In this document: positions 2,230 through 27,085 of the stretch, piece after piece
How the letters are laid out: each line of letters opens with the position of its first letter
Numbering within the stretch: position 1 is the stretch's first letter
NCBI GenBank assembly: GCA_033439795.1
Contig: JAUTDP010000009.1
Coordinates: 2,480,001-2,544,000 of the forward strand
From: Sordaria brevicollis
Taxonomy: Eukaryota > Ascomycota > Sordariomycetes > Sordariales > Sordariaceae
Direction of reading: 5' to 3'
Length of the DNA: 64,000 nt
Program-made: the position numbers and the translations under genes
Notes under the pieces: model-generated
The model's input: the letters and a program-made list of their open reading frames with translations, nothing else
Database searches by the model: none
Told to the model about the DNA's origin: nothing

Positions 2230-3671
2230 ATGGACGCCTCTGCGCCCACGCCAGAAGCGGCTGCTACCGCGCCAACACCAGAACCGACTGCCGCTGCCGC
2301 TGCACCACCTCCGGTTCTCTTTCGCGCCAGCAAGAAGAAGAGAGCCTTCCGTCAACGAGCCGAGGACAACGATGATGATGTCGCGAAGCCAGGAGTCCAA
2401 CCCAATTCAGCGGCGACTATCAACACCGCCAGTGATGCAGCTGCACCAGGCCAGGGCAATGCCACCTCGTCAACCGATCCAACTGTTTCTGCGACACCGG
2501 CGACGACTGCATCTACATCGAACGACAAAGAAGAGGGCGGTCTCTCCGTCGCCGAAGTTCTACGATTGCGAAACGCAAAGAAACACAGACTAGGCGGCGT
2601 CGCGTTTCGAGCTGGGGACGACGGCGCGACAGCTACATCGACAGTGCAACAAAACTCGGAGCAAGCAATGGTTCTACACGAAAACGGAGGGGAAGTGCAG
2701 CAGCAACAGGAAGCTGCAATCCTCGGTGGAGTGGCCAAGAGGTTTGCGCCGCAGACTGGTATGGTCGGCGAGTTGGTGAACAAGCACATGTGAGTATTAT
2801 CCATGCACAGTACTGAGCGGGGGGGATTATGGGAGTTTGGTGGTGAAAGACAGCGGCTGATCAAGCAAGGGAGGAATACATAGAATCCGAGCTGGCTAGA
2901 CGAAAGCGGCTCGCCGCTGAACATCGAGCACAGCAAGATGGTGGCGACGTGAACAATAGCAACAATGCGATGGCGAACAGCAGCAGCGGTATGGCGAATC
3001 TCCTCGCGGCCGATCCGACGTTGAGCGTCGGCGGCGGCAAAGTCGAGTCCCAGCGAGCTCTGCATGGCAAGCTCATGGAGATTGATCTCGGCGAGGAAGC
3101 GCGCGCGCGCAACATTGCGGAGACGGAACGCGCGAGACGTCGACTTGAAGGCCAGATCCTCGAGGAGGAGGGGGGAGAGCTGGATGCGGATGGCCGTCGC
3201 AAGAAGGTTCGCCTTGGTCCCGACGGAAAGCCGTGGCGGTCGAGGAACCGCAGGGATAGCGACGCGCTTAAGCGCGATCAGCAGGTGGAGGAGTTTTTGC
3301 GTGAGAACAGATGTAAGTTTCACGTCCTCCCATTTGCCAACCAACTTTGTTATCACATGCTAACCACAATGTGTGCTCCAGTGGACGTCTACGACGTACC
3401 CTCCGCCGAGCCCGAATATGCCACCAACATGGACGACGACGAGATGGCCGCGGACGACCGTATCGCTGAAGAGTTCCGGCGCGACTTCATGGACGCCATG
3501 TCGCAGAGACATAGGCGCAGAAGACCGGCTGTCAATGCCACCGCCAGGCCTTCGGCCAGAAACCAGGACTCTGAAATCCTCAAGGGTCCCAAGCTGGGTG
3601 GCAGTCGCAATGCCAGAGCGGCTATGCGCGAGAAGCTGCTCAGGGAGCAGGAGCAGCAGAAGAGGCGTTGA
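2230..3671 (+). CDS. tls1: Tls1/Hep59 (C9orf78) family splicing-associated protein
   Basis: Three exons join to 430 residues: 2230-2789, 2870-3312 and 3382-3671. Intron 1 has a GTGAGT donor and a CAAG acceptor; intron 2 has a GTAAGT donor and a CCAG acceptor; both keep the frame. The start was chosen at 2230 because upstream codons in that frame resemble leader. The order fits the Hep_59 family: a low-complexity N-terminus, the block GLSVAEVLRLRNAKKHRLGG, then NKHMEEYIESELARRKR across the first junction, a basic region, and LDVYDVPSAEPEY followed by ADDRIAEEFRRDFMDAM across the second. In fission yeast the relative Tls1 helps splice transcripts for shelterin and heterochromatin factors, and human C9orf78 associates with the spliceosome. 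A nuclear role is therefore expected. The C-terminus is strongly basic with an Arg/Gln/Glu helix. The gene lies 0.9 kb from the RIP-mutated block but is itself undamaged. Confidence 0.88.
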
Positions 3672-4571
3672 TGATTCTTCTCTGTCTGCCAGAGGTGTAC
3701 CTCGAATATCATCGACGAACTCGGAAGATGAAGAGAACAACTACTTACTATCCATTGAGGGAGTTGGGAGAGGCCTGTATACGATTTATGGCCGAACAAC
3801 TTTCAATGGGCCATTTGAGCGGGGAGAAAGAGCGCAAGCTGGTGATAAGGAACTTTGCATCTTCAATCGAGGCTGGCGGGCAGTTCAGGTATGTAGCGTG
3901 GATTATGAAAGCAGTGGCAGTGATCACAAACAGGCAAGCATCGTCAACTTTAGAGCCTCGGCGCTTCAACGAGAACCAAGTGAGATCTAGCCGTTGGTTA
4001 TCATGGTATCATCCTTCCGACACTCACTTATCGTTCTGCAGAAGTTGGCTACTCGGTCACTGCGCACACCATACCTTATGGAACGGTGTCACAAGGCGGC
4101 GGCGGCGGCGAACTGCTGAGGAACGTTTGGCTCTTTCATGAGAACTTGCTCTGCCTCTTTCGTACCACACCATTAGTGATTTGGTTTGATTTCCTTTCAA
4201 TCATTCGAAGAGGGGAAGCAGCGGCAAGTTGCAGTATCTTGGCTGCGAAATTCATATGATCCCCGTGTTTAGTTCTATAGCAACTAATCCATCAATTTTT
4301 GAATGACACTCCCCATCATAGCGTTTAGCAAAACTTCAGAAATGGTGATTTACAGATCACGACCGGACCACATAACTCGAAATGAAATAGGATCAAACGG
4401 CCAAATCTAACCCCCCTCTCTGCTCAAACACACAAGACACAAACTCGGACCACGAACGAAATAGTCAGCCGCACATTTGACAGTGGTGAGAGCGACGAGT
4501 GGTGGAAGTTGTTGGTTGAAGTAGCGTAGAGTAGCGCAGTGCTTATAAGCCTCCTTCACGGTGCTTTACAC
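3672..4571. other. Intergenic stretch between tls1 and the AT-rich block
   Basis: No supported gene. A 157-residue frame at 3668-4141 overlaps the end of tls1 and has no recognisable domain. Base composition is ordinary until about 4600 and then drops abruptly to extreme AT, so this is normal euchromatic DNA up to the block boundary. Confidence 0.6.
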
Positions 4572-4620
4572 TTATCTCAGTGCTCAGACCTTCTTACTTT
4601 TTTAGGCAAGGACGTTTATA
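4572..4620 (+). repeat. Left terminal inverted repeat of the composite block
   Basis: The outer 21 bases (4572-4592, starting TTATCTCAG and ending AGACCTT) are the inverse of 27065-27085 with a single A/G difference. A second matching segment follows inward, where 4607-4618 contains GGACGTTT and the right side has AAACGTCC. The spacer between the two matches differs in length by a few bases. This repeat marks the exact point where normal base composition ends. Confidence 0.75.
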
Positions 4621-5559
4621 GACTATAATTGCCTTTTTATGTTTATATACACGGACCCTCCATATTTAAAAGTTTTAATATTTATAATATCGGTCCGTAC
4701 GTTCTTATTTTTCATTATAATTATTATTTTATATTAAAAACGCTTAAAAAAGAGGTTTGAATTCAAAATTAAACATTATATAATTACGGGTTTATAGATC
4801 GATAAATTTGGCGTAGATAATCCCCAACCCTAAAATACTATAAATACTTTTAGTAATACAAAATATATATTAGGAATAGCCTTATCGAAACGAATACAAT
4901 AATGTAATTAATTTTTTAATCCGGGCAATATAAATTTCAATTATTAAAATATTTCGAAAAAAATTACGGGTTTTTATATTATATATCTACATTATACAAC
5001 AATATTTTTTATTCTAACTTTCTAAAATTTAATAAATATAGCCGTAATAGTATTTTAAACGCGTAGGGTTATTCTACCCTAATTACGTTACGTTATTATT
5101 TTTCCTTAATTTTTTATTCTTAATAGAATAATATTATAAATAACGACGACGCCCCCTTCGACGCCCAATACGTATTAATAGTAATACGAAATATTATTAG
5201 CGGTAAATAGCTTCGTAATAAATAGGTTCGAATAATTATACACCTAGTTATCGAATAATTGGATATTATTCTAAATGCGGCAATTAGGTATAGTAAAAGT
5301 ATTATACTATATACTTTTTTAATATTACGCGATAAAATCACGATTTAAATTATTCCCTTTACGAAATTAGGAGAAAATTAACGTAATAATATTATAATTA
5401 AATTCCTAGAATTTAAACCGGTATAAATAAATAAAGACGTAATTTTGAAGGTAAGTAAATACTACCCCCTTTTACTTTTTTTTTTAATTAACCGTAATAT
5501 AGAACAAGGATATTTAAGATTAAATTTAATATAGCGATTATATTTATATCCTTTTAAGT

Positions 5560-7720
5560 CTAAAATTGGCTATTAATACGAAATTTAAAGCTATATTGAG
5601 GTTATTAAAATTTTATAAAAAAATCGGATTATTTATAATCGACGAGTTATATTGTATATTAAAATGGCGCGATTTTTATAAAGAATTTTAATATTTATAT
5701 ATTTTACGACCATTATTATTAAAAAATATTCCCTAATTTAATTATACGGTTACATTAGCCGATATTTATAAAGATTTTATTATTAAGAAGGCTAACTTTA
5801 ATTCTAAAAACCTCGAGATTATTAGAACCTTTATCGACCGGCTAGAAATCTCGATTATTATCTAATTATTATTAAGAAATTATATTAGCGATTTTAGGCG
5901 TTTCTTCTTTTTAATAGAAAGTTTTATATTATCGATTCGACGCGATATCCTAAAAACGATTGTATATATTGATAATTATAATAATTTTTTAATAATAAAA
6001 AATATTTTAATTAATTATTTATATAATAATTATAATTTTAGTAAAGAATTTAGCTATAAAGTTATTAGGTTATATAATTCCTTAGTCCGCCTAATAGATA
6101 AAGATATTATATATAAGGATTTTACTACTAAAGTTGGTACCGATTATTATATATATTTAGTAATTACTTCTTTGGGTATAAGTATAAACCTATTTAATAT
6201 TATTCGAATTATATAATTTAGTATACTTTTTATTCCTAATATTCTAGATATATAGTAGCATTTTAAAAGAGTAATACGAAAACCGAGGGATAATAGTATA
6301 TAAAGGAAAGCTTACTTTTTTATACTATATTAGGTATTTGATTATTTTAGTTTAGATAATAAATAGCCTAAACGATTATAAAAATAATAATAATTATAGA
6401 GATTTCGTTAACTTTATGCGCTAAATATACCGAGTAGGTTAATAAACGTTATTATAACCGTAAATAAGGAAGAAAATCCGGATATAAATAATAATAATAA
6501 CGAAAATAACGTTAATATTAAAGAATAGGGGTAACTTTAAAATAATAATAATGAACTATTATTAAATATTAGGGAATTCTATTCCTTATACGAATTCGAA
6601 TATAAAATTAAATAGTCGAAATTTAATAATAAGGTTTATACTAAGTATTAAAAAAAAGATCTAATCTTTATAAAATTCTTTAACGTACTATATTTTCGCA
6701 AAGTTATTTTTAATTATTTTTAAAAACCTCCTAATAAAGACTTCGAATATAAGCGATTTATTCCTAATAATATATATTGTAATAAATTTAATTATATACT
6801 ATTATTTAAGAGGATTTTTATAATATTAAAGTAAGACCGAAATAAGGTATTTAATAAACCGACGGTTAAAATATTAGCGGATAAAGTAATATTATATATT
6901 AATAATTAGTATAAAAAGAAAGTATAAGAATTTATTTTAAAAAGTAACTATATATTCGAAATTGTATTAGAGATTTTAATATCTATCTAGCTTTAATATA
7001 TAATCGTATACTTTTTCGCCAATAATAATATAATTCGTTGGAATAAAGAGCTTCTTTTCTCGGACGTTAATAAATTAAAAAATAAATTACCAACTATATA
7101 ATAATAGGAATATAAAAAAGAGTATATCGATAATCTAATTGAATTTTGCTTTACTTCCGTTACTAAAGTATATAAAGAGTAAAAAGGGGAATATTTTCGA
7201 CTTTAATACTAAACCTAACTTCGGTTATATATTAATAACCGGTTATATATACCTGCAATTTTTATTCGTCCTACTTCCTTTTTAATTAATATTCTATAAC
7301 GCGTTATTATTTTTATTATTCCCTAATTAGAAGCTCCTTAATTAGAAATTGGAGAATTTTTAGTAATATTAGAGGTAATAATATTAGGGGAATAAAAAGT
7401 AGAATAAAAAATAGAATAAAGTAGTAATAATAGTAATAATTAAAATAAAGTTTAAAAAGGAATAGAAATTAAAATAAATCTAGCCGAATATTAATATTAA
7501 TATTAAAGTCTTTTAATATTATAATAATATTAATATTAAAGTTCCGCTCCTTTAATTTTAATATTATAATAGGGATTCGAAGAAATTAACCGGTTATTTT
7601 ATAATCTTGTTAATTCGTTATTAATTATTCCTCTCTATAATTTTATAATTGGTTTTATAATTAGAAATAAAAAAGGAGAAGAGGAAAGACCAACTTCTCC
7701 TTTTATTAATTTGCTTATAT
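5560..7720 (+). pseudogene. RecQ-like superfamily 2 DNA helicase relic
   Basis: One frame (codons starting at positions such as 5641, 5746, 6160 and 6691) carries helicase motifs over more than 1 kb with no detectable frame shift, though many TAA/TAG codons interrupt it. Visible in order are: a DExH-type motif II read as IIDELY at 5635-5652, where the Tyr codon TAT derives simply from a His CAT; a motif III position reading TVTLAD at 5746-5763; a motif V-like TSLGMxIN stretch (read TSLGISIN) at 6166-6189; a motif VI-like QxFxRxIR region at about 6253-6279; and a possible RecQ zinc-binding remnant at 6691-6790 with FRKV and Cys/Tyr positions. The same frame continues with coding texture (EYIDNLIEFCFTSVTKVYKE near 7123-7180) to about 7720. 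The N-terminal Walker A region is too damaged to place. Its neighbours suggest it is a gene of the surrounding inverted-repeat element. A telomere-linked-helicase relative is the alternative. Confidence 0.7.
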
Positions 7721-8456
7721 AATTTAATACTTAAATAATTATATTATATAATATAAAAATACATATTATTTTATTATTAATAATTAAGCCGCTATTATTA
7801 ATTAATAAAGGGAAAGGAAAGGGTAAAGGTAAAAAGAGGGAGAATAATACTCTAATTGTTAAATTACCCGCTTATAAAAAATAAAAATATATATAATAAT
7901 AAATTTATATATATAATTAATAGAATATACGCTTCTTTCGATAATCCTTACGCTTATTCCGAAAAACTCCGAAATATCTATTTATAATAATATTTTTCTC
8001 CGATAAAATAATATACCCTATTTAATCCTTATTTCTATTATAAATATCCTTAATACCGTTAATATTTTAATCTTAGAAATTTTTTGCACTTTCCTTATAT
8101 AAACGATTACTCTCTTCGTTATAATTAATAATCTTATTTTAAATAGAAAATTTAATAATATTAGGAAGATATTTTTAATTAATAATATCCGTAAAGAAAG
8201 GGATAACCTTATTCTAATTAATAAGTTTCTTTATAAGGTTCTATTACCTAAGAAAATAAATATTTAGAATATTAAATACCTTTAATTCTTCGGATTCGTT
8301 AATTACCGTTACTATTACTTTCCATTTAATTATATTATTTTTATATAATTTAAAGGTATAAAAAATAACATTAATAAAGGGGTTATTAATAATATAAATC
8401 CTTTTAATAACGCGCCCCTATAGTTTTTCCGTACCTTTTCGAATAATAGTTAATAC

Positions 8457-8762
8457 TGTCACAGGCATTGCCTACTCCTGTATAGAAGTGGTCGTATTGT
8501 ATATACTAGCTGATAATAGCTGTTTACGTACAATATTGGGATTGATAAATGAAACGCGACCGTAGTCGCGACGACCGTGATTAACTATGCCTATAGTACC
8601 CTAATACCTTAATCCCGGCGTCACTTAGATTTATATACGTAATTAGGGCTACGTATTAGCTATATTATAATCGTATAAAATAGTCGCGGTATATAGGATT
8701 ATTTCCTGTTCCTCGTATAATAATAAATATCGTATTTTATTATTTACTTATGCCCTATAATA
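8457..8762 (+). repeat. 5' LTR of element 1
   Basis: It is 306 bp and begins TGTCACAGGC. It matches 16696-17001 along its whole length, with differences that are almost all C/T or G/A. It keeps GC-rich islands such as the CGACCGTAGTCGCGACGACC palindrome-like core near 8558-8577. The start is fixed by the adjacent AATAC duplication and the equal length of the 3' copy. Confidence 0.93.
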
Positions 8763-9189
8763 TTTTATTATATTTAATTTCGCGTTAACGCGTAATAAGT
8801 AATTTCGGATAAATTAAATATAATAAGAATTATTATAGGATTTCGATTTTTTCGATATTACCTTCGGCGAATTAATATAATTGCTAATAATATTTAAAGG
8901 ATTTTAACGTTATCCGGTAGAAAAAATATCCAAAATTTAGTAAATAATTAAAGTCCTTTAGGGTACGATTAGCGTACGAACGTAATACGGTAAAAGTTAT
9001 TTTATTTTAATTATTTTTAATTCGAATAAAGTTTTAATTAATTAATAATTATATTGGACGAAGATTAAATTAATTTCGTTTAAATCTTTTTAACTTTATT
9101 AATAGGTTATTTAATCTTTTAGAAAATTTATAACGATAATAATATTAATTTTATTATTTCGCCCGGTTTTATAATATAAGTTCGCAGCT

Positions 9190-11340
9190 ATAAAAAAGTA
9201 AAGAAGCTTCTTTATTACTTTAATAAGAAATTCGGTAATAAAGAGAAATAAATTAATAATATTATAAATTAAAAGGAGGAATTTATTTAAAAGAAATAGT
9301 AGGAATTCGACGATTTTATTAAGAAAATTAGTAATTTCGTTTAAGAAAAGTAAAACGAATTCGACGATTTTATTAAGAGGGTTAATAAATTTACCGACGA
9401 AATTAAAAATATTATTAAGAAATTCGAATAATATATTATAACCTTTTAAGAAATTAAAAAGGAATTTACCGATTAAATAAATACTCTATAAAAGTAATAT
9501 AATATAATTATTAAAGATAATATTATTTTATAAAATAGTAAAGTAAAAATATAGAACGATTTTATATAGGTTAAGAAATTTTTTAATAACGAAATAGCGG
9601 TTAAGGAATTTAATTATAATAAATTATTAAAATCCCTACGTTTCGTTAATAATAATACTAAGAATAATTATATTAATTTATAGAATATATTAGACGAAGT
9701 TTAAATTTAAAAAATTTTAGCCAAGTTTAATAAAAAGGATTTTAAGATAGTTAATTAAATTATCGCTTCCTTCGAAGAATAAGTCTATTTTATTTAAGAA
9801 GATTTCGATAACGCTTTAAAATTATACCCTAAATATAAGGCTTCGGTTAAAAATATAAAAAATAAGGGTAAAGGTAATTATAGAAGATAGAATAAAGGTA
9901 CCGAAAGTTTTTTTAGCGGAACGGGTAATAGTCCCGGTAATAATAGCCTCGAAAGAATTTTCGGTATAGGAACCGGCTTTAATTTTAGTATTATAGGTAG
10001 TGGTTTTAACGATAATAATTTTAAAGGAAATAATATAGGAATTAGCTTTAATTTTAGTACGGAAGGTAACGGTCTTTAAAGTAGAGGAATAAATATAGGA
10101 GGAATAAGCGGCAAATTTCCTTTTAACCCTAATAATCCCTTTATTAACGGATTTATTAATAAGCCTTTCGGCGGAAGAGGATTTAGAAGTCTTAATAGCC
10201 CTAACGGTTTTAATAGTAACCCCTTCGGTAATAGCCCTAATAGCCCTCTTAATAATCCCCCCGGTAGTCCTAAAGGCTTTAATAATTTTAATAATCCTAA
10301 TGGCTTTAACGGATTTAATAGTAATTTTTATAACGGTAATCCCCCAATAATTTATTACCGAAAGGATTTTATTAAAAATCCCCCGATATTTATAAGTAAA
10401 GAAATTAATATTATAAAGCGTTATAATAAATTTTTAGTTTAAATTACGGCTATTTATATTCGTTAAATAATAAATACGTATAATTTCCCTAACGAAATTT
10501 CTAAACTATTTTATATTATATTTTACTTAAACGGAGAGGCCAAAATTAATATTAACGAATATTAAAAAACGATCTTCGATAATTTATAATATTCTATTAT
10601 TTAGGAGTAATTTATTAGCGATAAATTTTTTAAATATTTTAACGATTATTATTATTAAAAAAATATTATAATTATAGCCGAGGCTAATTTATAGAAATTT
10701 AAGTAGAAGGGTAAATATATTAATTACGACGATTTTGAATCCTAATTTATTTTATTAATTAATTACTATAATTATAATAAAACTACTTACGTTCGTCTAT
10801 TTTATAATAAAATTTCTAAAATTATAACCGATTTAATTAATTATTAACCTATAATTTTAACCCGCGACGATTAGAAAGGATAGTCTAACTTATATAAAAA
10901 TATTTTTAAAGTTTAGAATAAATTTACTTTAATCCGTAGAACCGGTTCGTTATTTATTAGCGGCGGTAATAGAGGAAATAATAATTCGAATAATAATAAT
11001 AAAAAAGATTTTAATACTATAGACCTAAACCGTATTAAATTTATTATAATTTATAAAGACGTCCTATAAATTCGTTATAATAAAAATAATTATATAAATT
11101 GTAATAAAGGTAAATATATAATTAAAAATTACTGTAACGCTATTAATTATAATAATAAGGGTTAATAACCAATTCGTAAGAATTTTAATATTATTAAAAA
11201 GAATAGCGAGAATAAGGTTAATAATTATATTATAAGTAATATTATTAACCCGGTTCCGGTTTAAGCCCCGGTTATTCCCCCGGTTACCCCGGTAACTGTA
11301 ACCCCCCTTACTAACCCCGTTTAATAAAGAAATAGCGAAC
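9190..11340 (+). pseudogene. gag relic of element 1
   Basis: This is the frame with codons starting at 10167 and 11091. The first part (about 9200-9830) reads as a Lys/Glu/Asn-rich, coiled-coil-like stretch. About 9900-10330 is an unusually repetitive Gly/Asn/Ser/Phe-rich segment (units such as NPNGFNGFNSN). The capsid-like part follows, then a CCHC zinc knuckle at 11091-11132, where two of the Cys and the His now read Tyr through single G-to-A or C-to-T changes. Numerous TAA/TAG codons kill it. The long low-complexity segment ahead of the capsid is not typical of fungal gypsy gag. Confidence 0.75.
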
Positions 11341-11899
11341 CCTAAATTTAAATTGCGGTTAAAAGTATTTAAAGATATTAAAGAAAAAGGAGATATTAGA
11401 AAATCGGAAATTTAATATTTAAGTTCTAAATAATTAGAAGGAAGAATAATTATTAAAATTAAATAATTTAAAACTTTATAAAAAGTAGAATATAATTCTT
11501 TTATTTATTTATCTTTAATATTTATAGCGTAATAATAAAATAAAATACGTATTTTTAATCGATTTTAATTACTCTAGGAAGGCTTTTATAAATTAAATAT
11601 TTATTCGGAAGGCTTACTTAAAATATAAAAAACTTAATAAATTAAAATTTTTATACTTAACCGATAGGGATTTTAAAAAATAAATCGACGAATATATTAA
11701 AATTATTATAAGGATTAGTAATTATAATAAAACTATTAATTTTTTCCTAACGGATTTAGCGGAGGATTACCCGGTTATTTTAAAGTAATTATAATTATAA
11801 TAATACAATTTTAATATCGATTAGGTTACTAATATTATAATTTAAAACTAATTTTATTTATTTACCTATATTATATAATATTATTTAATTAAAATTAAT

Positions 11900-14800
11900 T
11901 TTCTTAAAGCGCGTAAAGAGGACCTCCGCCTTTCCGAAGCGCGTAAGGATAATAATCTATACGACCTCCCTTTTAACGAAAAATTTAAAAACGAATCCGA
12001 AAAAGAAGAAGATTTACCCAATTAAGTAACGAATATAATAATAGCGTTAAAAGGGAATTAGAACGCTATAATAAAAGTATTAATAATATTAATATACGTT
12101 TTATTATTCGAAGAATTATTTAAGTTAGTAAAAAAACCGGTTTTAAATATTTATAAAACCTAAATATAAATAATCGGCGGTAAATATATTTAAATAATAA
12201 AAAGACCGGAATAATTAAAATATATAATATAATAACCTTTTAAACCGTTTATAAATATAATAGTATTAAATTTAAAAGATATTAAATTCGTTAATATTAG
12301 AACTTTTATATTTAATATAAAAATGAGGGGCGTAAAAGTTAATATAATAATTTAAATTGCTTTCGAAGAATTTTAAAAAGTAAAAAAAGTACCGATTATA
12401 TTATTAACTTTATTAAAAAACGTATAGTAAGAAATTTTATAAAGGAAGGGTAAATTATATAAATAATTCTTTTAAAACGAAGAAATTTATAAATTTATCG
12501 ATCTCTATAAAATAAATACTATAGGGAAAATACTTAACCTAAATTATATTTTATAACCGGGAGAAGTAATTCGGGAATTCGTTAATAGAATTTATAATCT
12601 AAGTATTATTAAAAAATTAGAAGAAGAGTTAAAGAAAGAATTAAAAGAACGAAAACCTATACCTTTAATAAATATTAATTGTATTTATAGTATTACGGAC
12701 GAAGATATTACTAAATTTATAAAAAAATTTATAAGACTTAAATATACCCCCGAATAAATTAAAGAACGCTTCCTTAACGAATATAAAGATTTATTTTATA
12801 TTACGGACCCTAAGTAAGCGGACGTTATATTAGAATACTAATCTTATAATTATAAAATCGAATTAAAGTTGGGAGTAGGCCCGTTATTATATTCCCAAGT
12901 ATAATTAATATCCCCCTAAAAATTAAAAGTTATTAAATAATAATTAGACGATAATTTAATAAAAGGCTTTATTAGACCCTTAATATTAAATGTAATATCC
13001 TTAATTTTATTAATTAGAAAATTAAGCGGCGGTATTAAAATTTATATCGATTACTATAATATTAACGAAATTTCGCTAAAAAATAAATATTTATTATTAT
13101 TAATTAGGGAGATATTCGATATTATTTATAAAGTAAAATAATTTACGAAGGTCGATATTATTATAGCCTTTAATAAATTAAGAATAGTAAAAAGGTATAA
13201 ATAATTAATAATTTTTATTACCCGTTTCGGTTTATATAAATTATTAATATATCCCTTCGGGTTATTTAAAGTATTAATATTATTTTAGAATTTTATTAAC
13301 GATATTTTATACAATATCCTAAATATTTATATAATAGTATATTTCGATAATGTCTTAATCTTTTTAAAAATATATAAGGAATACGTTTTATACGTTAAAG
13401 AAATATTACAACGGTTAATTAACGCTAAATTCTAAATCGATATCGATAAATATAAATTCTATACCTAAAGGATTAAGTATTTAAGTTTAATTATTATATT
13501 AAGAGGTATTAAAATAGATTAAGAAAAGGTCGACGCTATTATTAAATAGGAAGTACTTATTAATAAAAAGTAATTATAGCGCTTTTTAAATTTTATAAAT
13601 TTTTACCGAAAATTTATTAATAGGTTTTTAAAAATAGGGAAGCCCCTATATAACTTAATTAATAAGAATATTGAATAAAATTAAACTAAGGAATATAATA
13701 CGGCGTTCGAAATATTAAAAAAGGTATTTATAATTATATTAATTTTTAAAATTTACGATTAGGAGAAATTAATAATAATTGAAATTAATATATTAAATTA
13801 AATAATAAGAGGTACCCTCTTTTAAATATATAACGGCGTTCTATATCCGGTAATATATTTTTCGGTAAAATATTCCCTAATTAAATATAATTATAATATT
13901 TATAATAAAGAGTTATTTACTATTATTAAGGCTTTAGAGGAATAGAAATTAAAATTAAAAGGATTTACGCAATTATTCGAAATTATTATAAATTATAAAA
14001 ATTTAAAAATATTTAATACGATGAAGAAGTTAATACTACAGTATATAAAATAGTTGGAATTTTTATTAAAGTTTAATTTTATAATTAAATACCGCTTTAA
14101 TTTAATAAATATAAAATTAAATATATTAAATAGGAAGTTAAAAAATATATTACGAGAGGCGACCGATAATAAATTTAAAGTAAGGGAGAAACCGTTAATT
14201 AATCCTTCGTATTTTAATAAAAAATCCTTCGCCTAAGAAGACGGCCTTATAAATACGGACGGAAAAGGCTTTATAATAAACGTTATAGCGGAAGACGGTT
14301 CCTTACTAATAATTTATAAATTCGAAGATATTATAAAGGAAAATAACGAGGAAGGTTTAAAAATCTATATAAATAACCTAATCGATTGGGTATACGTTAA
14401 TTCCCCCTTTATAATAAATATTCGAATAGCAATTCGTTTAAATATTCGTTAGTTAAAATACTTTAAAAAAAAGTTTAAAATCCCGTTCGTAAAATATAAA
14501 TTAATTAACAATATAATAATATTCTATAATAAGCTAATTATATTATTTAACGACGAGAAAGTCCAATTCGAATTTATTTACCGGATTTATACTTTAATAT
14601 AAAGAAGATACCCGGGTAAGGATAAAACCGTAGTATTAATATATTAATATTAGTAATTAAAAATAACGAACGTTATAAATTAATATTATAAAAATTATAT
14701 CCTATATTATAAAATTAAAATTATTAAAATATTAATTAATAACTTCCTAAAATTATTACTTATCCCCTACGTACTATAGAAGGATATTTCTATTAATTAC

Positions 14801-15900
14801 GTTATACCCCTATTTAAATTAAAACGGGTAAAAAAAGGCGTAAAATATTAATACGTTTTAATAATAATCGATAAATTAATAAAAATATAGTATTTTATTC
14901 TATACGAAGGTTTTATAATAAAGGAATTAATCGAAAAGTTTATCAATAAAATTTATACCCTATATAATTTATTAAATATAATTATTTCGGATAAAAGCGT
15001 CTAATTTGTATTAACCTTCTAATTATACCTTTTATAGAAATTAAGCGTAAAATTAAAATTAATTACTCTATATTATAAAGAAATTAATAATTAAACCGAA
15101 CGGATTAACGCGGAAATAGAATAATACTTTAGGATATTCGTTAATTAAGTATAGGATAATTAAATAAATTAATTGCCTTTAGCCGAATTCTAAGGTAATA
15201 ATTTCAAATTTATTATAATTAGCGTTATTCCCTTTTTTATTAATTACGGTTTTTACCTTCGGATAAATATCAAGCCGTTATTATTTATATTATTAAACGT
15301 TATAAATATATAGAAAAAATAAATTTTTAGCGCGAATTAATTGGTTTTAAAGTTTAAGGAAATATAGGATTTTATTAAAACTTCGTCCTTTTAGGCTTAA
15401 GAGAAATACGAAATAGTAATTAACGTTTATTATAATAATATTTTTAAATATAAGGCGGGGGACGAAGTAATATTCGATATATTTAATTACGCGATTAGCC
15501 GATTATATAATAAATTCGCCCTATATTTTAAAGGCCCTTTTCGCGTTATAAAAGCTAATTTATATATAGTCGAATTAACTTTGCTTAAAAATATAAAGGT
15601 TATATACGTCGTTAACGTTTTTAAAGTAAAACCCTATATTTTAAAATTATTAAATTAAATAAAGTTAATATCGGATATTAAAGCCAACGAAGGTATAGAG
15701 GTTATTAAAATAAATAATTTTAAAGAAGATTATCGTTAAAAATTCGACGAATTATTAAATTATAAAAAATAAGGAAGGGAATAAAAATATTTAGTAAAAT
15801 AAAACTATTATCCCCCCGATTAGTAATTTACGTCCAACTTTAATAAGTATTACGAATTAATTTAGTAATTTTATAAAAAATATTTAGAATTAGGCTTACT
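11900..15900 (+). pseudogene. pol relic of element 1 (reverse transcriptase, RNase H, integrase, chromodomain)
   Basis: All recognisable domains lie in a single frame. The reverse transcriptase spans about 12860-13530, with the catalytic YxDD box now YFDNV at 13340-13354 (the Asn codon AAT derives from GAT). RNase H and its connection run about 13690-14240, including LEFLLKFNFIIKYRFN at 14057-14104, which matches the conserved EFLxxFxFxIxYRPG motif. The integrase core covers about 14770-15300 (KDISINYVIPL, VIIDKL, IISDK). A C-terminal GPF-type region lies near 15530-15650, and a chromodomain at about 15700-15890 (KYLVK, YYPPD). The protease region near 12300 is too damaged to assign residues. 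The conserved frame over 3 kb, despite dense stop codons, shows substitution without indels, as RIP produces. Confidence 0.88.
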
Positions 15901-16318
15901 TTACCCGTCGTTGAAAAAGGGGTATAAAAAATAGTTAAAAACGGGTATTTTCCCGAATAGTATTAATAATAACGAAAATACAATAATACTATTACTAATA
16001 CCAATACCGGTTATACTAACCGCTAATAACCGATAAATATAACGTAGCGTTAAATTAAATAATATTTAAATAAAAAATAAAAGATAAATAAAAATAATAA
16101 AAAAAAAGGAGGTTCCCCCGTTTTAATTATACGCCCCGCCCGAATCCTTTATACTTCGAACTTTTCAGCGAAACGTCGTTAAAAAACGGGGGATAATACG
16201 ATATTTACTACAGCGTACGTCCCCTTACCCTCGCTTATTACCTTTAATACCCTTAGCCTTCTATTTATAATATTTTAATATTATAATTAGTAAAAATAAT
16301 AAAAATAATTATTAGAAC

Positions 16319-16406
16319 GGTACGGATAGGAATCGAATATAGGTCTCTATAATTTATATTATTAATAATAATTTATTCGTTAATAAATTACTATATTACG
16401 GGCGTC
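16319..16406 (-). other. tRNA-like sequence inside element 1
   Basis: The minus strand reads like a decayed tRNA: a D-arm-like TAGTAATTTATTAACG and a T-loop-like TTCGATTCC box followed by CCGTACC at the end, over 88 bases. Acceptor and T-stem pairing is poor, even allowing for RIP, so this may be chance or a tRNA-derived fragment carried in the 3' untranslated part of the retrotransposon. It lies between the chromodomain and the polypurine tract. Confidence 0.25.
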
Positions 16407-16682
16407 TTTATAATACCCTTTTCGGAGTTAATAATAAATAAGGAAAGAGTAAAGGTTTATAAAAGGAAAATAACGAACGTTTAAAGTAATATTTGGGTTA
16501 TTATAAATAAAAAGAGGTTCGAAGGGAAGGGTTAAGTTTAATAAAGGTTTAATAAAAGGTTAATTCCTAAAGAAGAGTCTTAGTACGCGGTAAACTCCCG
16601 TTTAGGGATTTACTTTGGTAATAATTAATTAAAAAATAAATAAGCACCCGGGAATAGAATTTTTAAACGGGGAGTTTTATTT

Positions 16683-16695
16683 TAAAGGGGGGTAA
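16683..16695 (+). other. Polypurine tract of element 1
   Basis: A purine run ending in six G (TAAAGGGGGG, then TAA) ends exactly at the 3' LTR start. In the live element this primes plus-strand DNA synthesis. Confidence 0.8.
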
Positions 16696-17001
16696 TATTA
16701 TAAATATTACCTATTCCTATATAAAAGTGGTCGTATTATATATACCAATTAATAATAATTATTTATATATAGTATTGGGATTAATAAATAAAACGCGACT
16801 GTAGTCGCGACGACCGTAATTGATTATACCTATAGTACCCCAATACTTTAGTCCCGGCGTCACCTAAACTTATATACGTAATTAGGGCTACGCACTGGCT
16901 ATATCGTAATCGTATAAGATAATCGCGGCGCACAGGATTATTTCCTATTCTTCGCACAATAATAAACATCGTACCTTACTACTTGCTCGTGCCCTGTGAT
17001 A
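16696..17001 (+). repeat. 3' LTR of element 1
   Basis: It is 306 bp, the same length as the 5' copy. Its left end is heavily altered (TATTATAAATATTACC against TGTCACAGGCATTGCC), while its right half stays closer to the ancestor and keeps CACTGGC and GCACAGG. It ends at the second AATAC duplication. Confidence 0.93.
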
Positions 17002-17876
17002 AATACATTAAAATTGAGAGCGAACTATATAAGCGTAATTTCGATATTATACGTAGAATTCTTATTATTTTTAATATTAATTGTATATACCCTATTCCAA
17101 TACTCTAATATAAGATTAATAAACTTATATTTATTATTAATAGTAATAGAGCGAATTAGGCTACCCTTTAAAATAGTATTATAGAAATTATCGTCGGTAA
17201 TATCTTTATAAAGAAGTTATATAAAATATAGTATTTCTAAATTATAATTCTATAATTTATTACTATAAAAAATAATAGGAAGGATAGGAATAATTTCCCG
17301 AAGGAAGTTATAGTCGCCGGTACGGATTACTTTATAGATTAATAATAAAATCGATATTATTTGTATTAATTTATAATAGCTTCGAAATTCGATACCGATA
17401 TTTTTTTTTACCTTTAAGGCTAAAGTAGGTCCGGATACCGAAGTAGGTCCCTCAACTTCGATATTAATATTAATATCTATATTATTAATACCCTTATCTG
17501 GATATTCTTTAATTTAACCGTATACGGAAAAAATTATATCCTAAATGCGATTAAATATATTATTTAAATTATTCTCCTCGTCCTCGCCCTCTTCCTTATT
17601 ATTTAATAAGGTTTTTATTATAGATTTAATACTATTAACAGTTAAATTATCGAAATTCCTATATTTAATAAGCTCAATTATTAGAAAAATAAGAATTCTA
17701 ATAATAAATCTATATATAATAAGAGGTATAGCTTAATAATATTTAATCTTTTCTTTTTTAATATTCTTTAACCGTTAGAAGAAATAAACGTTAAAAGAAA
17801 TTATAATTAACGAAAACGCTTTATTTTTTCCTATATTTTAAAAATAATAAAATAATATTTCGATAAAATTGATTTC

Positions 17877-18129
17877 TATCACGGCGCTAGCGGACAGGAT
17901 CCCTGTCTGGCGGACCGGTTGTCGCTCGGGCGGTCACTTGACAAAGGTTGACCGCACTAGCGCACGTGATTGCGTGCCGCCTTCGTAGGTCGCCCGCGCC
18001 TAGGTATAAAACCCTGGCGCGGGGCGCACCCTTTATTCGTTTCTTCTTTTCTTCTTCATTTTATAATTCTATAATAAATTTAAATTCAATATATTAAACT
18101 TATCTCTCGTAACTACATCGCTCGTAACA
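17877..18129 (+). repeat. 5' LTR of element 2, with a TATA-like promoter
   Basis: It is 253 bp and starts TATCACGG (ancestrally TGTCACGG) and ends CTCGTAACA. A GC-rich core at about 17880-18030 has largely escaped RIP. TATAAA at 18005-18010 lies upstream of a pyrimidine-rich CTTTATTCGTTTCTTC stretch, a plausible core promoter and start region for the element's transcript. Confidence 0.92.
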
Positions 18130-18235
18130 ATTATAAAATTATCCTTAATATATTAAGGAGGTATTTAAATATCCTAAATTTATTTACCGATTAAAATAAT
18201 TATAATATATACCCTTATAATTAATTACGATAGCG

Positions 18236-20600
18236 TATACCCCTAACGAAAAGGCTACCGCGGCTAAAACCGCTAAATTATTTACTATTAAAAGCGTTTA
18301 AATAAATAAAATTTAGAAAAAGAATATATCCGATAAATTTATAATCGAATAAATTAAATTTAATATTATAAATATATTTATTATTTTAAATATAATTATT
18401 TAATAAAATAATACTTTTAAACGTCGTTCATTTAACGATATTACAATCAATACCCTTAAAAAAAATAGGATACTTAATTATATAATATTAATAAATTTAA
18501 TTTAAAGGATTACAATATTCCGGAAAATATAGACGAAATTATTATATTTTTTAATTAGGAAATTATTAATAAATTCGCTAACGTTCGTTATACATTTAAT
18601 ACAGAAGATTTACTCGGCTTTTTATATACGAAGATTAACGTAATTGCGAAATATTAGGTTTAATATAATAAAGGTTATTTAACCTTTATTTTTAAAGCTT
18701 TAACGGTTATAGGTTAAAATTATTAGGAATAAAATAACGGTAATATCCTATTAATAGATTTTAATACTTTTAAATTTACTATCGAGGATCCCGAGGGCGT
18801 ACGTACTATTTTCAAGGAAATTAAATTGCGAACTATCTTAATTAAAATTATCTTTTCCTAATAATAAAAATATTAAATTATTACTATTAATTTAAATACT
18901 AATTTAAAATAAATATATAAATATACTACTAACTTATTAAAATATTAAAAGGGTATTAAAATAAATAACGAACATTTTTATAAGGATTTACGTAAAAAAT
19001 AAAATAAGAATATATTCTTAACGCGTTAATTATTAAAAGCCCGCGGAAGTAAAAATCCCGACTTCGAATTAGATAATTACAAAACTTTACGTTATAAAAA
19101 CGCCGCATTACGTAAAAAGAATTATAAATTCTAAGCCTAATTTACTACGCTACGCTAAATTATTAATTATTCTAATAAAGGAATTTAAAATAATATTCCG
19201 TTTAATAATAATTAAAACGACGATTTATCCGACGATAAAAAGGCTTAAAATAATACCCCGTTTAACGACAGCCATATTAATAAATAAAATACCCTTTACG
19301 AATAGAAAAATAATTCTTTAATTAAAGGCTACCTATCCTACCCCTATTTCTTTATTAAATAGAACGAAACTTATTACGATTTAATTAAAAAGGAAAAAGA
19401 ATTCGCTAAAATTAAAAATAATTTAATAATTATAGAAATCCAAACCGAAGAGTTAAGAAGAATAATAATTACCCGGGATAATAATATCGTCGATTTATAT
19501 ATTATAATTATTACTTTAATAAAAAAAAATATCGATTTTTATAAAGAAAATATTAATTTTCGTAAAAAGAAGGTCGCCTTCCTAACCCCCGAGAACTTTA
19601 AACGCTACAATTATACTAACTATAATAAAGATAATAATAATAGAGGGCGTTATAAAGAAATATTTACTACCGATTTTTTTACTACTAATTAAGGACGTTT
19701 ATTAATTAAAAAGAAGGATCCGCCCTATTTTTATAACGAAAAAGATAAAGATATTATTACTTTTAACGTTTAATACCGCTATATTTTTAATAAATTTAAA
19801 TTAAATACCGATTATTTTTCTAATAATAAAGCTAAGAAAATATATATTAAAAATCGTATTATTAATAAAGCTATTTAAAATCTTAAACCTTATTTCGCCG
19901 ATAATCTTTATAATATTAAAATTTTTAATAAATTATTCGCCTATTTACGCGCCGAATATTATAATTACAATCGAAAGGAAAAAGTTATTTACGAATTTAA
20001 TAATTTAAAATTCGAAATAAACGGGGATTTCTAAAAATTTTGTAATAAATTCGTATATTTAATAGGAGAATGCGGTCGTCCTCCTAATTTATAAAAATAA
20101 AAATTCAATTAAAAATTCCCGGGTATTATTTAAAACGCCTTCCTTTAAAAATATAAATAAGAGAATATTACCTTCAATTAATACGCTTTAATAATTAAAA
20201 AAGCGGTCGAAATTAATTAATATATTTTCCGTAATAATAAGGTTAAAAAAGATAATAAGGATAAAAATAAAAATACCTCCTCTTTTATAAATTCGTTTAA
20301 TAAGGTTAGGGGTTTTAACGATTTTAATAAAAATTTTAATAATATTATTAATAATAATATTAATACCGGTAATAATAATCGGAGTAATTCCCGTTACGCC
20401 CCTAATATAATTCGTAAAGAAGCCTATAAATTATTCGAGGAAAATAAATATTTTATATATAAAGAAATTAAATATCGTTTCTATAACTATTTTAATTACC
20501 GTAATAGAAACCCTAACCGGATTAATAAATTCGTTAATTATTATAGCTATAAAAATAAAGAGGATAATAAACCGGCCGACGATAAAGTAGAAAATTAATT
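18236..20600 (+). pseudogene. gag relic of element 2
   Basis: The product is Lys/Asn/Asp-rich. A CCHC knuckle lies at 20449-20490 (read YFIYKEIKYRFYNY, where Tyr codons replace Cys and His codons by single transitions). The start is not certain; an NEKATAAKTAKLF stretch near 18245-18285 is the first protein-like segment. Dense TAA/TAG codons interrupt the frame. Confidence 0.65.
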
Positions 20601-20639
20601 ACCTTAGGAATATTAAATTCCCTCCTAAGGATTAAATTA

Positions 20640-23600
20640 ATAAGTATTTATTTTAAAAAGAATTTAAAAGAAATATTACCGGAGAGTATAAAAGTAAATA
20701 AAGGTTTTTTAAAAAATTATTTAGGTAGACCCGTATTAATTACGTCTTATATTATAATAAGTAATAATAGAAAAACTTTATTTACGAATAACGTATTTAT
20801 TAATTCGGGAATAAACAGTAATATCTTTATAAATAAAAATTTTATTAATAATATAATTAAATAAAGAATAGAAAGATTATATAATTTTTATCCTTACGCT
20901 ATAGGAGGGTATATTAGGCAATATAGCGAAACGATTAATTAATATTTAAAGGGAATTATTAAAGTATAAAGTTAACGGTTCGATAAAGAAGTAATAATTA
21001 TTATTAATTCGGGGTATAACGTTATTTTAAGTAAATATTAACTAAAAAAATATAAGGTTTTAATCGATATTATTAACGTTAACTTTATTTTTAATAAAGT
21101 AATTATAATATTATTAATTTTTAATAAATATATTTAAAAATTCGAAATATTCGTTAAAAATATAATACTATTACCTTTAATAAAATTTAATCGATTAATC
21201 GAATTATTCGAAGAATTAAAGGAACGACCAATTTAATATAGAGAAAATGAAAATTTAATAAAAATAAAACGATAATTATTAAATTAATACGCCTTAAAAT
21301 AAAAGGAGGAAGACGCAATACTTATATAACGAAAATATATCGAAATATTAAAAGTTGAACGAAAAAACGACCCCCTCCGAAACGAAGACGCGTAAGGCTA
21401 ATACCGATTAAAAAAAAATAGCGTAAAATAATATAAATATTATAACGATTTCGCGGTAATCGGTACCAACGCTTTTTTTATATTCGTTAAACGGGAATAT
21501 ATAGGGGTAATTAATCTTTACAAATTCAACCGATTTATTAACGATTATAAAAAATAAGCCTTTATTAAAAATAAAGTAGAATTATATAAATAAATTAAAA
21601 AAGAAGTCTTTAAATACGTTTACGAATATTTAAATATATTTAATAAGAAGGAGTCCGATATTTTACCGGATTATTATATTAATAATTATAAAATCGATTT
21701 AACGAACGGAATAAAGCCCGAAGACCTTAAGTATAGCTTATTATATAAAATATCGGTTAATAAATTAAAGGTTTATCGGAAATACGTAAATAAGGCGCTA
21801 ATTAAGGGCTTTATCGAGAGTAATTTTATACTTTAAATTACGTTTATCCTATTCGCACCTAAGGCTAATAATAAATTAAGGTTTTACGTAAATTATTAAA
21901 AATTCAACGCTATTATAAAAAAAGATAAATACCCTTTTCCTTTAATTAATAAAATTATTATTAAAATTAATTAAACGAAGATTTTCTCGAAGATTAATAT
22001 TAAATAAGCCTTCTATCGAATTTATATATACCCCGACGACGAAGAATTTATAATATTCCGAATAAAATACAATATATATAAATATAAGGTCCTACCTTTT
22101 AAATTAATTAACGGGCCGTTAACGTTTTAATAGTATATTAATAAAATATCAATAAAATATTTCGATAATTTTTATAATACGTATATTAATAATATCCTCA
22201 TTTTCTCGAATAATTTAAAGGAATATAAAATTTATATTAAAAAAATATTAATTAGGTTAGAGGTAGCGGGATTATAAGCGGATTTGGATAAATACGAATT
22301 TTACGTCGAAAAAACTAAATTTTTAAATTTTATTATTAGAATTAATAGCGTATCTATCGACCTTTAAAAGATTACGGTTATAAAGGATTAATAGGTTTTA
22401 ATAAATATACGAAGAGTATAATCCTTCTTAGGGTTTTATAACTTTTATTAATACTTTATTAAAAATTATAACCGGATTGCTAAATTATTAACGGTAATAA
22501 CGAAAAAAGGAGAAATCTTTAATTAAAATAAAAAATATTAAATTATTTTCGAAGAATTTAAAGGACGATTATTATTAATACCTATTTTAGCGTATTTTAA
22601 ATATAAATAGCCGATATAAATAGAAACGAATATTTTAAATAAAATAGTAGCGGGAATTTTATTTTAATTAATTAATAACGAATAGCGTTTAATCGCCTTC
22701 TATTCCGAAATTATATATAAAATAGAATATAATTACTTAATTTACGATAAAGAATTAATAATTATCGTTAAAGCCCTATAATATTAACGGGTAGAATTTA
22801 TTAATTTATATAAACCCTTCCTAATTCTTACAAATAACGAAGCGTTTAAATAATTTAATATTAAAAGATTTCTAAATTTATAATAGGTAGGCTAAATAGA
22901 ATTCTTATCCTAATATTATTTCGTTATATTATATTAATTAAAAAGGGAAAATAAAATTATTAATACTTTATTAAAGAAGGTAAAAGATTTAAAGAGCTAA
23001 AAAATTAAATAGGAGGTTCAACGTACTTTCCAATTCTTTAAGAATTTAAAAGACGGCCGTATAATATAATTTAACGATATAATTAATAATATTATTATTA
23101 TTTACGCGTTTATTTCGTTTTTAAAAACCTTTATAAAAATTAACCTAAAAGTCGCAGAAAGTAATTACAAAGAACGCTTAAAGGGATACTTTTTAATAAA
23201 TTATTTTATATTCGAAAATAAAATTTACTTAGATTTAGAAATTTACTAAAATATAATTAGAAAGGGGGAAAATAGGTATTAATTTATTATTAATAAAATC
23301 CTTACCCATTTCGATAAATTTATTATACCGTTTAATACCCTAAGAGTTTAAATTATTTATAAATTATACGTAAAAATTATTATTACTTATTCGGGTTAGA
23401 ATAAAATAAGACGTTTAATTTCTATATAATATTAATAATTAGGAATAATTAATAACGTCGACCGTTTCGTCGCTAATTGCGTAATATATTATATTTCGAA
23501 GGTTCTCCGTAATAAAATACCCGGTAAATTAAAGCTTATTCCAACGGCCTAACGTACTTAATAAAGCCTAATCGTAAATTTCAAATCGATATTTAAAAAT

Positions 23601-24700
23601 AAATAGGGATTCGATAACGTATTTATAATAATAAATTAATTAAATAAAGTATTATAAATTATCCTTTACTTTATTATAGTAACCGCTAGGGACGTAGCCT
23701 ATATATATTACGAAGGCCTATATTATATTTACAACCTATTAAATAAAATTATTTTGGATAGGGGTCTTTAATTTATTTTAAATTTTATAAACGAATTAAT
23801 AAAAATTCTTAATATTTAGTAGAAATTAATTTCTTCGGATTATAATTAGACCGTAAAATAAATAAAAATTATAAACGAATATTTCGATTAATATTTTCGT
23901 CCTTTTATTAACTACTTTTAAAATAATTAATTAAAAGCGATTTTAATAATAAACGCCGTTTAAATAAAGATATTATATAATAATTTAAAAGGAATATAAT
24001 TATATAAAGTATTGAAAGGGTTCTTTATATTCGGTACCCTAAATTAAAAAGTACGTATAAATTTTAACGGCGCTTAATTAATAATTAAAGAGAAATTTAA
24101 CTGTAAGGATACGTAGGGAATAGTAAAACGGATTCGAAATTTCGTAGAGAAGGCTAAGGAGTATATTATTAAGGTTTAAGAATGAATAGCCAAATAAACG
24201 GATAAATATTAATACGTCCCGGATTTCGGTCTTAAAAATAAAATATTTATTATTAAACGGAGCGAATTTACCGACTAATTAAATTATAAATTCGACTTTC
24301 CTTTAATTAATTAATATTTTAAAATTAAAAAAAGTATAATTATTTATTTAAATTAGAAATTTTAAAAGGGTAGAGGGGAATAGACGTTTTTTATATAAAT
24401 CGGTTAAGGAAATACCCTAATAATTTATTACCCGGCTAGAAATTAAAAGAATTAATAGGAGAATATATTAATAATAATATTAAATAGGAAATAAAAGAGA
24501 TTTTAATTTCTCGGGTATATTTTAGTAAATTCTAATATTAAATAAATTAAAAAGGATACAACCCGGACCCGAAATTTTATAACGCTAAGAATTTTAAAAA
24601 TTTATTTAAATTATTATAAACTTATTACGAAGCGTACCCAAAATACCCGGGCCTACCGCTATATTTAAGGGAATAATTATAAAAAGCGGAAGTAAAAGAA
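20640..24700 (+). pseudogene. pol relic of element 2 (protease, RT, RNase H, integrase, chromodomain)
   Basis: A retroviral-type protease active site reads NSG for DSG at 20802-20810 within VFINSGINSNIFI. The reverse transcriptase covers about 21690-22400. Its catalytic box reads YINNILIF for YIDDILIF at 22182-22205, and AFYRIYI and LPFKLINGPLTF lie upstream in the same frame. RNase H lies near 22590-22960. The integrase core at about 23560-23960 shows TARDVAYIYYEGLY, a DRG and an NEYFD stretch. A C-terminal chromodomain spans about 24490-24680 (SRVYF, KGYNPDPKFY, YPKYPGPPLYLR). Protease and RT frames agree, and stop codons are everywhere. Confidence 0.87.
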
Positions 24701-24849
24701 TTCGATAAGGATTACCCAAATAATAATATTTTTTTAAAGAAAAGTATAAAGAAGTTAAGGAAAATAGTAAGCGCTAAAAAATAAAGGACCTACTTTATAT
24801 ATAATAATAATTCTAATATTTCGAAAATTCGGGACGAATCTTTTTCGAA

Positions 24850-24860
24850 GGGGGGGGTAA
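24850..24860 (+). other. Polypurine tract of element 2
   Basis: Eight consecutive G followed by TAA directly precede the 3' LTR, in the same arrangement as element 1. Confidence 0.8.
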
Positions 24861-25113
24861 TATTATAATATTAACGGATAGGATCCCTATTTAGCGGACC
24901 AGTTATCGCTCGGGCGGTTACTTAATAAAGGTTAACCGTATTAACGCACGTAATTGCGTACTACCTTCGTAGGTCGCCCGCGCCTAAGCATAAAACCCTA
25001 GCGCGGGGCGTACCCTTTACTCGTTTCTTCTTTTCTTCTTCATCTTATAATTCTATAATAGACCTAAATTCAACGTATTAAACTTATCTCTCGTAACCAC
25101 GTCGCTCGTAACA
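24861..25113 (+). repeat. 3' LTR of element 2
   Basis: It is 253 bp and equal in length to the 5' LTR. Differences from that copy are C/T and G/A changes distributed in patches: its left half is more mutated and its right half (AGACCTAAATTCAACG) less mutated than the 5' copy. It ends CGTAACA, followed by the ATTTC duplication. Confidence 0.92.
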
Positions 25114-27031
25114 ATTTCGATATAAAAGAAGGCCGGGATAGGAAGTATTTATTTCTTTTATTCCTATTATTCGTTAATTTCGATTTTATAATATTAAATA
25201 TATTTAATAAACGATATAGTTTTTTAATTGTTATATATTAAAATAAGCCGGTAAATTAATTCGGATTTATTAAAAGTAAAACGGTTATTTTATAGTTCCT
25301 TATAAATCTAATAAATACCCTTAAATTTGCTTTTATCTTTATAAATAGTATTAATTTAAAGATTTAGCAAATTTTTATACTTAATTTATTTAATAATAAG
25401 AAAGGCCGGTAATTTATTATTTTCGATAAATCGAGTAATAGTAACGTTATTAATTGTACGAAGAAATAAGGATTTAATAATCAAATTTAAAAGCTATTAG
25501 GAAGTAATATTAGTATTTTTACGCTTTAATAATAAATATTTTATTACTATTTTATTAGTAAATTTCTTTGTACGGTTAAAAAATAATTATTAAAGGGGGC
25601 TATAAAGTAATAGGTATTATATAAGATTAATAATAATTAAATTAATTATTTAATCTTATTTTCTTCTAATTAGCTTTCGAACCGTATTTTTATAATTAAA
25701 ATTATTATATATAATAATACTATTAGGGTTATAGGTAGTACGCTTAAAGTTATACTTTATTTAATCTACTATAGTATTAAATAATTTATTAAATATTATA
25801 TATAATAAAATAATATTTATTTTAAATAAGGTTTAAATTATTCTTCGTAATATTCTTATTAATATTATATAAAAGTTAAAAATTCAACGAAGAAAATTAC
25901 TTTTAACTTCGGAAAATTTAAATATTTAAATAAATATAATAATAATAATACGGTTATAAAAATTTTAATCGATAATCGCGTTCTCTTTAATTATAATATT
26001 AATAAATTTAAATCGGTTAATTATAAATTGTAAAATTATAATAACCAATATAGGAGCCGTCTTTTTGAAGTTAGGCTATATTTTAATAAGGGAATTCTCT
26101 AATTAAAACGAATTATTTAAATTAAAAATAGTAACCTTCCCGTCTCCTTCGCTCTAATAAATCTTTTCAACGTCGAAGTAATTAAAAGTAAATTCGTTAA
26201 TTAAAATTAATATTTCTTTACGTATAATAAAAATATAAAAGTTAGGGCCGGGTTTATCGGTTTAAACGTTAAAATTATAATTATTAAAAATATTTTTGAA
26301 TTCGTCGTTTTCTTCGAAAAAGTTGACGAAATTTATACTTCTATAAGAGTTTTGTAATTATTCGATTATAAAAACCTTTATATTAAATTGTATAGGTTAA
26401 GAGTCGGTATTATTAGTCCTTAATATTTTGGCGGAATAATTAATATATTTCGAATAGAGGCGTTTTTAAAACTTTTTAATTTTACGAATAATTTCGTAAT
26501 TTTTGTCTTTTTTATCAGTATTACGTTAATCGTTTGGGTTTTATTAATTAAAAATACGGCGGGTTAAATTATTACGAATTCGATTAGAATTATAAGTTCG
26601 ATTAATTAGAGTATTAATAGAAATAGGGGTAGAAATAATTAGCGGAGATTTTACGGGAATTTTAAGGGTACTAGGTTATTAAAGGCTATTTAATTATAAT
26701 AACCGTCGGCGTTAAAGGGTATTTTCGTCGGCTATATTCGCAATTTCGGGGGTTTTTATTTTTAAGGTCGCTATTAATAATAAAGGTTTAAAAGTAGTAC
26801 CGTTGGATAGAATTAGTTTACGCGATTCTAAATATATTAGAAGTATATTAATACGATGTATTATTATTGAATTATAGTATTGATATTAATTTGCTTGGTG
26901 TGTTTGAAAACCCGTATACGGTTTTGGTTAAATCCTGTATTTAGACCTCCTTGAGCGGAGTGTATAATATTACCCAGATTAAAAATAAAAAATTAATTTA
27001 TCGATAAAATAAAAAAAAACGTGTATTGGCT

Positions 27032-27085
27032 GTAAAACGTCCGTGCACGAGAGCTCAAGGAAGGAAGGTCTGAGCGCTGAGATAA
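27032..27085 (-). repeat. Right terminal inverted repeat of the composite block
   Basis: This is the inverse partner of 4572-4620. The outer 21 bases AAGGTCTGAGCG...GATAA match with one difference. The inner AAACGTCCGTGC resembles the inverse of the left side's GCAAGGACGTTT. Normal base composition resumes from about here. Confidence 0.75.

Follow-up and report, generated by a model that had tools for sequence, protein, structure and literature searches.

AcademH is said to denote Academ DNA transposons that carry a helicase, a group reportedly set apart by Kojima in 2020. The target duplication of Kolobok elements is TTAA, and P elements make 8-bp duplications. Extracts from published accounts add further features of these and comparable systems. 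AcademH has been reported from Ascomycota, Basidiomycota and Mucoromycota (PMC10799480), its target-site duplications are 9 or 10 bp long according to the author who named it (PMC10045372), and another source speaks of a RecQ helicase for Academ (PMC3627910). KolobokH is known only from fungi, the RecQ gene of Kolobok-1_CCri lies on the complementary strand, and Kolobok transposases carry the motif C/DxxH (PMC9587614). Duplications of 8 bp are also described for Zisupton and hAT (PMC12730594). Telomere-associated RecQ repeats, such as X26 of Stagonospora nodorum, form another group of helicase-bearing sequences, and these are RIP-damaged (PMC3017866, PMC4522978).

The window considered here is a stretch of 64,000 nucleotides of Sordaria brevicollis DNA. 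With a probability of roughly 90%, its block at 4572-27085 is a single DNA transposon of autonomous type, ~6.7 kb in length, which combines 22-bp terminal inverted repeats (TIRs), an 8-bp target-site duplication and two convergent genes, one for a DUF6589 protein that is the putative transposase and one for a RecQ-like superfamily 2 (SF2) helicase (Table 1). This is the autonomous layout that an initial annotation had proposed, now sustained by TIRs common to the copies, by the duplication and by the gene pair.

Table 1. Coordinates of the features of the element and of its insertions, in positions of the window.
Feature	Position	Strand	Details
Left target-site duplication, 8 bp	4564..4571		CTTTACAC; 7/8 bases equal to the right one
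Left TIR, 22 bp, helicase end	4572..4593	+	21/22 pairing; genome copies; edge 21-mer test
Inner subterminal match	4610..4617	+	GGACGTTT; inverted at the opposite end
RecQ-like helicase gene, degraded	4692..7461	+	74% and 69% identity to L011 and L009 translations
DUF6589 gene (transposase candidate), C-terminal part	7794..8456	-	Residues 748-960 of the L009 translation
5-bp duplication AATAC, left copy	8452..8456		
LTR retrotransposon in the DUF6589 gene	8457..17001	+	8,545 bp; LTR pair 82% identical; RVT_1, RT_RNaseH
5-bp duplication AATAC, right copy	17002..17006		
DUF6589 gene, middle part	17007..17876	-	Residues 454-747; Pfam PF20231, E 1e-6
5-bp duplication ATTTC, left copy	17872..17876		
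Second LTR retrotransposon in the DUF6589 gene	17877..25113	+	7,237 bp; LTR pair 87% identical; RVT_1, RT_RNaseH
5-bp duplication ATTTC, right copy	25114..25118		
DUF6589 gene, N-terminal part	25119..26477	-	Residues 1-453 of the translation used
Inner subterminal match	27035..27042	-	AAACGTCC
Right TIR, 22 bp, transposase end	27064..27085	-	21/22 pairing; genome copies; edge 21-mer test
Right target-site duplication, 8 bp	27086..27093		CTTCACAC

The two edges of the block were compared by sequence and by composition. The left TIR, TTATCTCAGTGCTCAGACCTTC, agrees with the inverted right TIR, TTATCTCAGCGCTCAGACCTTC, at 21 of 22 bases, GGACGTTT and AAACGTCC form a second match further inside, and the consensus of the element's TIR is TTATCTCAG[T/C]GCTCAGACCTTC. 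When 361,201 pairs of 21-mers near the two edges were scored, the TIR pair and the same pair shifted one base inward came out highest (20/21), versus 17/21 at best in a reversed, uncomplemented control; a chance inverted repeat was rejected on this basis. The flanks have a GC content of 0.527 and 0.515, five pieces of the block one of 0.213-0.234; both the shared inverted repeat with its inner match and the change in composition that coincides with it had been noted in the initial annotation, and both hold. The composition of the block is that produced by RIP, with TpA/ApT at 1.12-1.23 and (CA+TG)/(AC+GT) at 0.15-0.29 in the five pieces, the flanks giving 0.60-0.66 and 1.19-1.22 for the same indices. 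A 16-mer of the terminus had no match in a literature text search, and among the matches listed for a 9-mer none was on a transposon by title.

Two LTR retrotransposons interrupt the element, each flanked by exact 5-bp duplications. Their removal, with one copy of each duplication, gives an ancestral length of 22,514 - 8,545 - 7,237 - 10 = 6,722 bp, near the 6,665-6,685 bp of uninterrupted copies elsewhere in the genome. The remaining pieces of the window (4572-8456, 17007-17876 and 25119-27085) are collinear with one such copy, the 6,665-bp L011, at 80-85% identity, and match its bases 501-4303, 4313-5194 and 5195-7165 at 81, 80 and 84%, respectively. The DUF6589 protein, read with X at stop codons, resumes between residues 453 and 454 and between residues 747 and 748, exactly at the two insertions. 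The transposon came first and the LTR elements second, because they sit inside its gene. Three lines of evidence, the 5-bp duplications, the uninterrupted copies and the continuity of the gene, thus uphold the nested arrangement over a 6,722-bp ancestor that had been deduced earlier, and the locus is a clean case of an old element read through later insertions and RIP. The same evidence bears on the alternative that the inverted repeats come from separate elements and that the block is a mere pile of retrotransposon relics. Two LTR retrotransposons do sit in the block, but uninterrupted copies share both ends and the interior, and a single gene spans both inserts, which leaves the relic pile a vanishingly small chance; an origin of the repeats in separate elements is ruled out by the collinear L011 and by gene continuity across the inserts.

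The termini of the element recur in the host genome (53,076,358 bases in 27 contigs). A 21-mer of the terminus has 34 matches at no more than 2 mismatches and its reversed control has 0, while a 19-mer version has 38 and its control 1. A search for further copies with the same termini had been advised, with the warning that termini lying elsewhere would count against the element; full-length and short pairs were found, and the paired copies have their termini in common. Thirteen long copies are paired, that of the window included: three are uninterrupted (6,665, 6,665 and 6,685 bp), and the rest are longer or carry inserts. Five short copies of 131, 157, 187, 624 and 659 bp (L015, L016, L017, L039 and L040) share these ends and are flanked by exact duplications of 8 bp, and in a sixth (L038, 150 bp) the duplication agrees at 5/8 bases. 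Two diverged relatives, L043 and L045, retain the TTATCTCAG ends (TTATCTCAGAAGCT), their own two ends agreeing at 14/14 and 12/14 bases; both genes are present in each, with 8-bp duplications of 7/8 and 8/8 bases, and both genes are also present in L044 and L046. The joined flanks of 14 sites match their own halves only (28 matches), so these insertions lie in DNA that is single-copy at that search depth, and the same search found no empty site in this genome.

The initial annotation had counted against itself that no obvious target duplication flanked the block. This weakness is removed, because 8-bp duplications were found. Of 14 paired sites, 13 carry one without mismatch, and in the window copy CTTTACAC and CTTCACAC agree at 7/8 bases, the single difference being of the CpA-to-TpA kind made by RIP. 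Lengths of 3-7 and 9-12 bp match at 0 of the 14. Over all 24 sites inspected there are 17 exact duplications, three at 7/8, one at 5/8 (L038), and three sites (L041, L044 and L046) at which a second end was sought and not located. Beyond the 14, the duplication is exact at L024, L039, L040 and L045, the second end of the first three having been found by means of the duplication itself, and it agrees at 7/8 bases at L037 and L043. The element has two features of a class II TIR transposon, TIRs common to dispersed copies and a target duplication of fixed length (8 bp). That it transposed, with a stagger of 8 bp, is shown by these ends, by the duplication and by the copies. A Helitron was rejected on account of the TIRs and the target duplication.

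The plus-strand gene resembles RecQ helicases. Its matches in the window are split between one frame (4692-5768) and another (5257-7461), which means that a frame change adds to the stop codons of this copy. Pfam alone gave no match on the window helicase piece; a profile search matched the gene to WRN, though weakly (E 7e-4), and Helicase_C was detected, weakly, in two of five related translations (best 0.0016). Of 6,103 candidates in the helicase search a single protein was returned: P0001, which is 574 aa long and matches with 28% identity (E 7.2e-23). It contains DEAD and Helicase_C domains, has RecQ4, RecQ and WRN as its nearest solved structures, and aligns with the window itself over 5503-6279 (E 7.5e-20). 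At eight of nine further loci tested, the helicase and DUF6589 genes are convergent, on opposite strands, the ninth (L026) being a partial element; the earlier proposal of two convergent genes, one a helicase, is borne out by this RecQ-like gene and the DUF6589 gene facing it. The scored genome matches to either gene all hold stop codons.

An SF2 helicase within a TIR element is a feature of AcademH, and the likeness to it drawn in the initial annotation stands to that extent: both are TIR DNA transposons with an SF2/RecQ-type helicase, found in fungi. Membership was not established. As AcademH is described in the extracts cited above, its duplications are 9 or 10 bp long and those here 8 bp; the RecQ gene of the present element lies on the opposite strand, convergent. 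We do not file the element under AcademH because its duplication misses the reported length, the comparison being with AcademH as described; whether it is a true member of the Academ lineage with a helicase, making 8-bp instead of 9-10-bp duplications, is evenly poised. By analogy, the element works like AcademH, as a TIR transposon with a helicase; AcademH is its nearest system in kind, and KolobokH comes next. KolobokH and Kolobok-1_CCri, as excerpted, likewise couple a transposase with a RecQ helicase, whereas the 8-bp duplications here are of varied sequence, unlike the TTAA target. X26-type repeats, as excerpted, are also RIP-damaged and bear a RecQ helicase, but here the helicase lies within an element with TIRs, a target duplication and a DUF6589 gene. 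The locus thus provides another RecQ helicase carried by a transposon of cut-and-paste type, with a duplication length that differs from that reported for AcademH.

The minus-strand gene encodes the candidate transposase. Pfam PF20231 (DUF6589) matches in the genome copies L011 (4e-20) and L013 (5.8e-19) and in 13 of 13 translations of alignment A5, which were chosen by similarity and had stops read as Q or W. Among 13 related translations two other Pfam models matched weakly and only DUF6589 matched well, no other model exceeding its curated cut-off in sequences whose RIP damage lowers sensitivity. The hAT, P and KDZ domains had no Pfam match at E up to 0.1 in the 13 RIP-damaged sequences; the hAT, P and Zisupton/KDZ groups share the 8-bp duplication with the element and may differ from it in domain content, within that reduced sensitivity. 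PF20231 has 10 matches in the host genome, all with stop codons, and none in 14 control genomes. Conserved acidic candidates lie in the motifs Y[D/N]NFNF, [D/N]QK and [D/N]xxxEYxN, and could be catalytic residues. AlphaFold models of the DUF6589 protein from 5 and 13 RIP-damaged sequences reached a mean pLDDT of only 32.3 and 34.5, too low to reveal an RNase H fold with a DDE core. Two protein searches with the gene gave no match, one at E <= 1e-5 among 7,999 proteins and the other at E <= 1e-3 among 7,995, a PDB sequence search with the alignment gave 0 hits among solved structures, and a literature search on DUF6589 found nothing, with only unrelated strings for PF20231. DUF6589, a Pfam family of unassigned function, is now located within a transposable element whose ends and target duplication are defined, which opens its putative transposase role to direct test.

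Another reading is a separate, unnamed superfamily with a DUF6589 transposase, in which a RecQ helicase was recruited independently. The 8-bp duplication and the TTATCTCAG ends kept across diverged families argue for it, as do the good match of the 13 members to DUF6589 only, with two other models weak, and the empty literature search; helicase-bearing lineages already exist, according to the extracts, in Academ and Kolobok, and we consider the separate superfamily unlikely. In its fullest form such a superfamily would be marked by the DUF6589 transposase, a constant convergent RecQ helicase, the TTATCTCAG ends, the 8-bp duplication, and short derivatives below ~0.7 kb that depend on trans-acting proteins for movement and are spared by RIP, a doubtful proposition as well. 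We take the element for a new family, or a new lineage, within a kind already known.

A mechanism can be outlined for such an element. The DUF6589 transposase would bind both ends, excise the element and join it to an 8-bp staggered cut, and the helicase might assist in opening the ends or in gap repair. The short copies, which share these ends and the duplication, would have relied on proteins acting in trans for their movement. Once the transposon was in place, the two LTR elements would have jumped in and RIP would have silenced the pile, although RIP may also have acted before the LTR insertions and between them.

In the six short copies the RIP index lies at 0.91-1.36, without RIP-like depletion. 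A length limit of RIP would explain such undepleted short copies. The GC content of the five short copies with exact duplications (131-659 bp) is 0.40-0.45 versus 0.23-0.27 in the long ones. In seven long copies the outermost 80 bases (in the window, 4572-4651 and 27006-27085) keep the CA/TG that is lost from the interior, either as an edge effect of RIP or through constraint on the ends.

RecQ-bearing sequence extends beyond this element. The genome holds 65 scored matches to P0001, each with internal stop codons; a good part of them lies outside the described copies, so RecQ-bearing repeats are abundant in it. A second, larger RIP-damaged repeat with a RecQ gene runs from L047:3023 onward and through L048, L049 and L050-L052 (C24, C27, C21). 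Four of its frames were scanned against Pfam without a match, and at L047-L052 neither the far end nor a duplication could be located. It is alignable over ~8-9 kb and has an end similar to that of the window element; its terminus, TAGTCTCTGAGCACAGAC, has 28 genome matches at no more than 1 mismatch versus 0 for the control. The host genes that flank the block in the window, by their matches, are Hep_59 (2949-3668), DUF846 (eukaryotic; 31716-32219) and an HpcH/HpaI aldolase (33642-34436).
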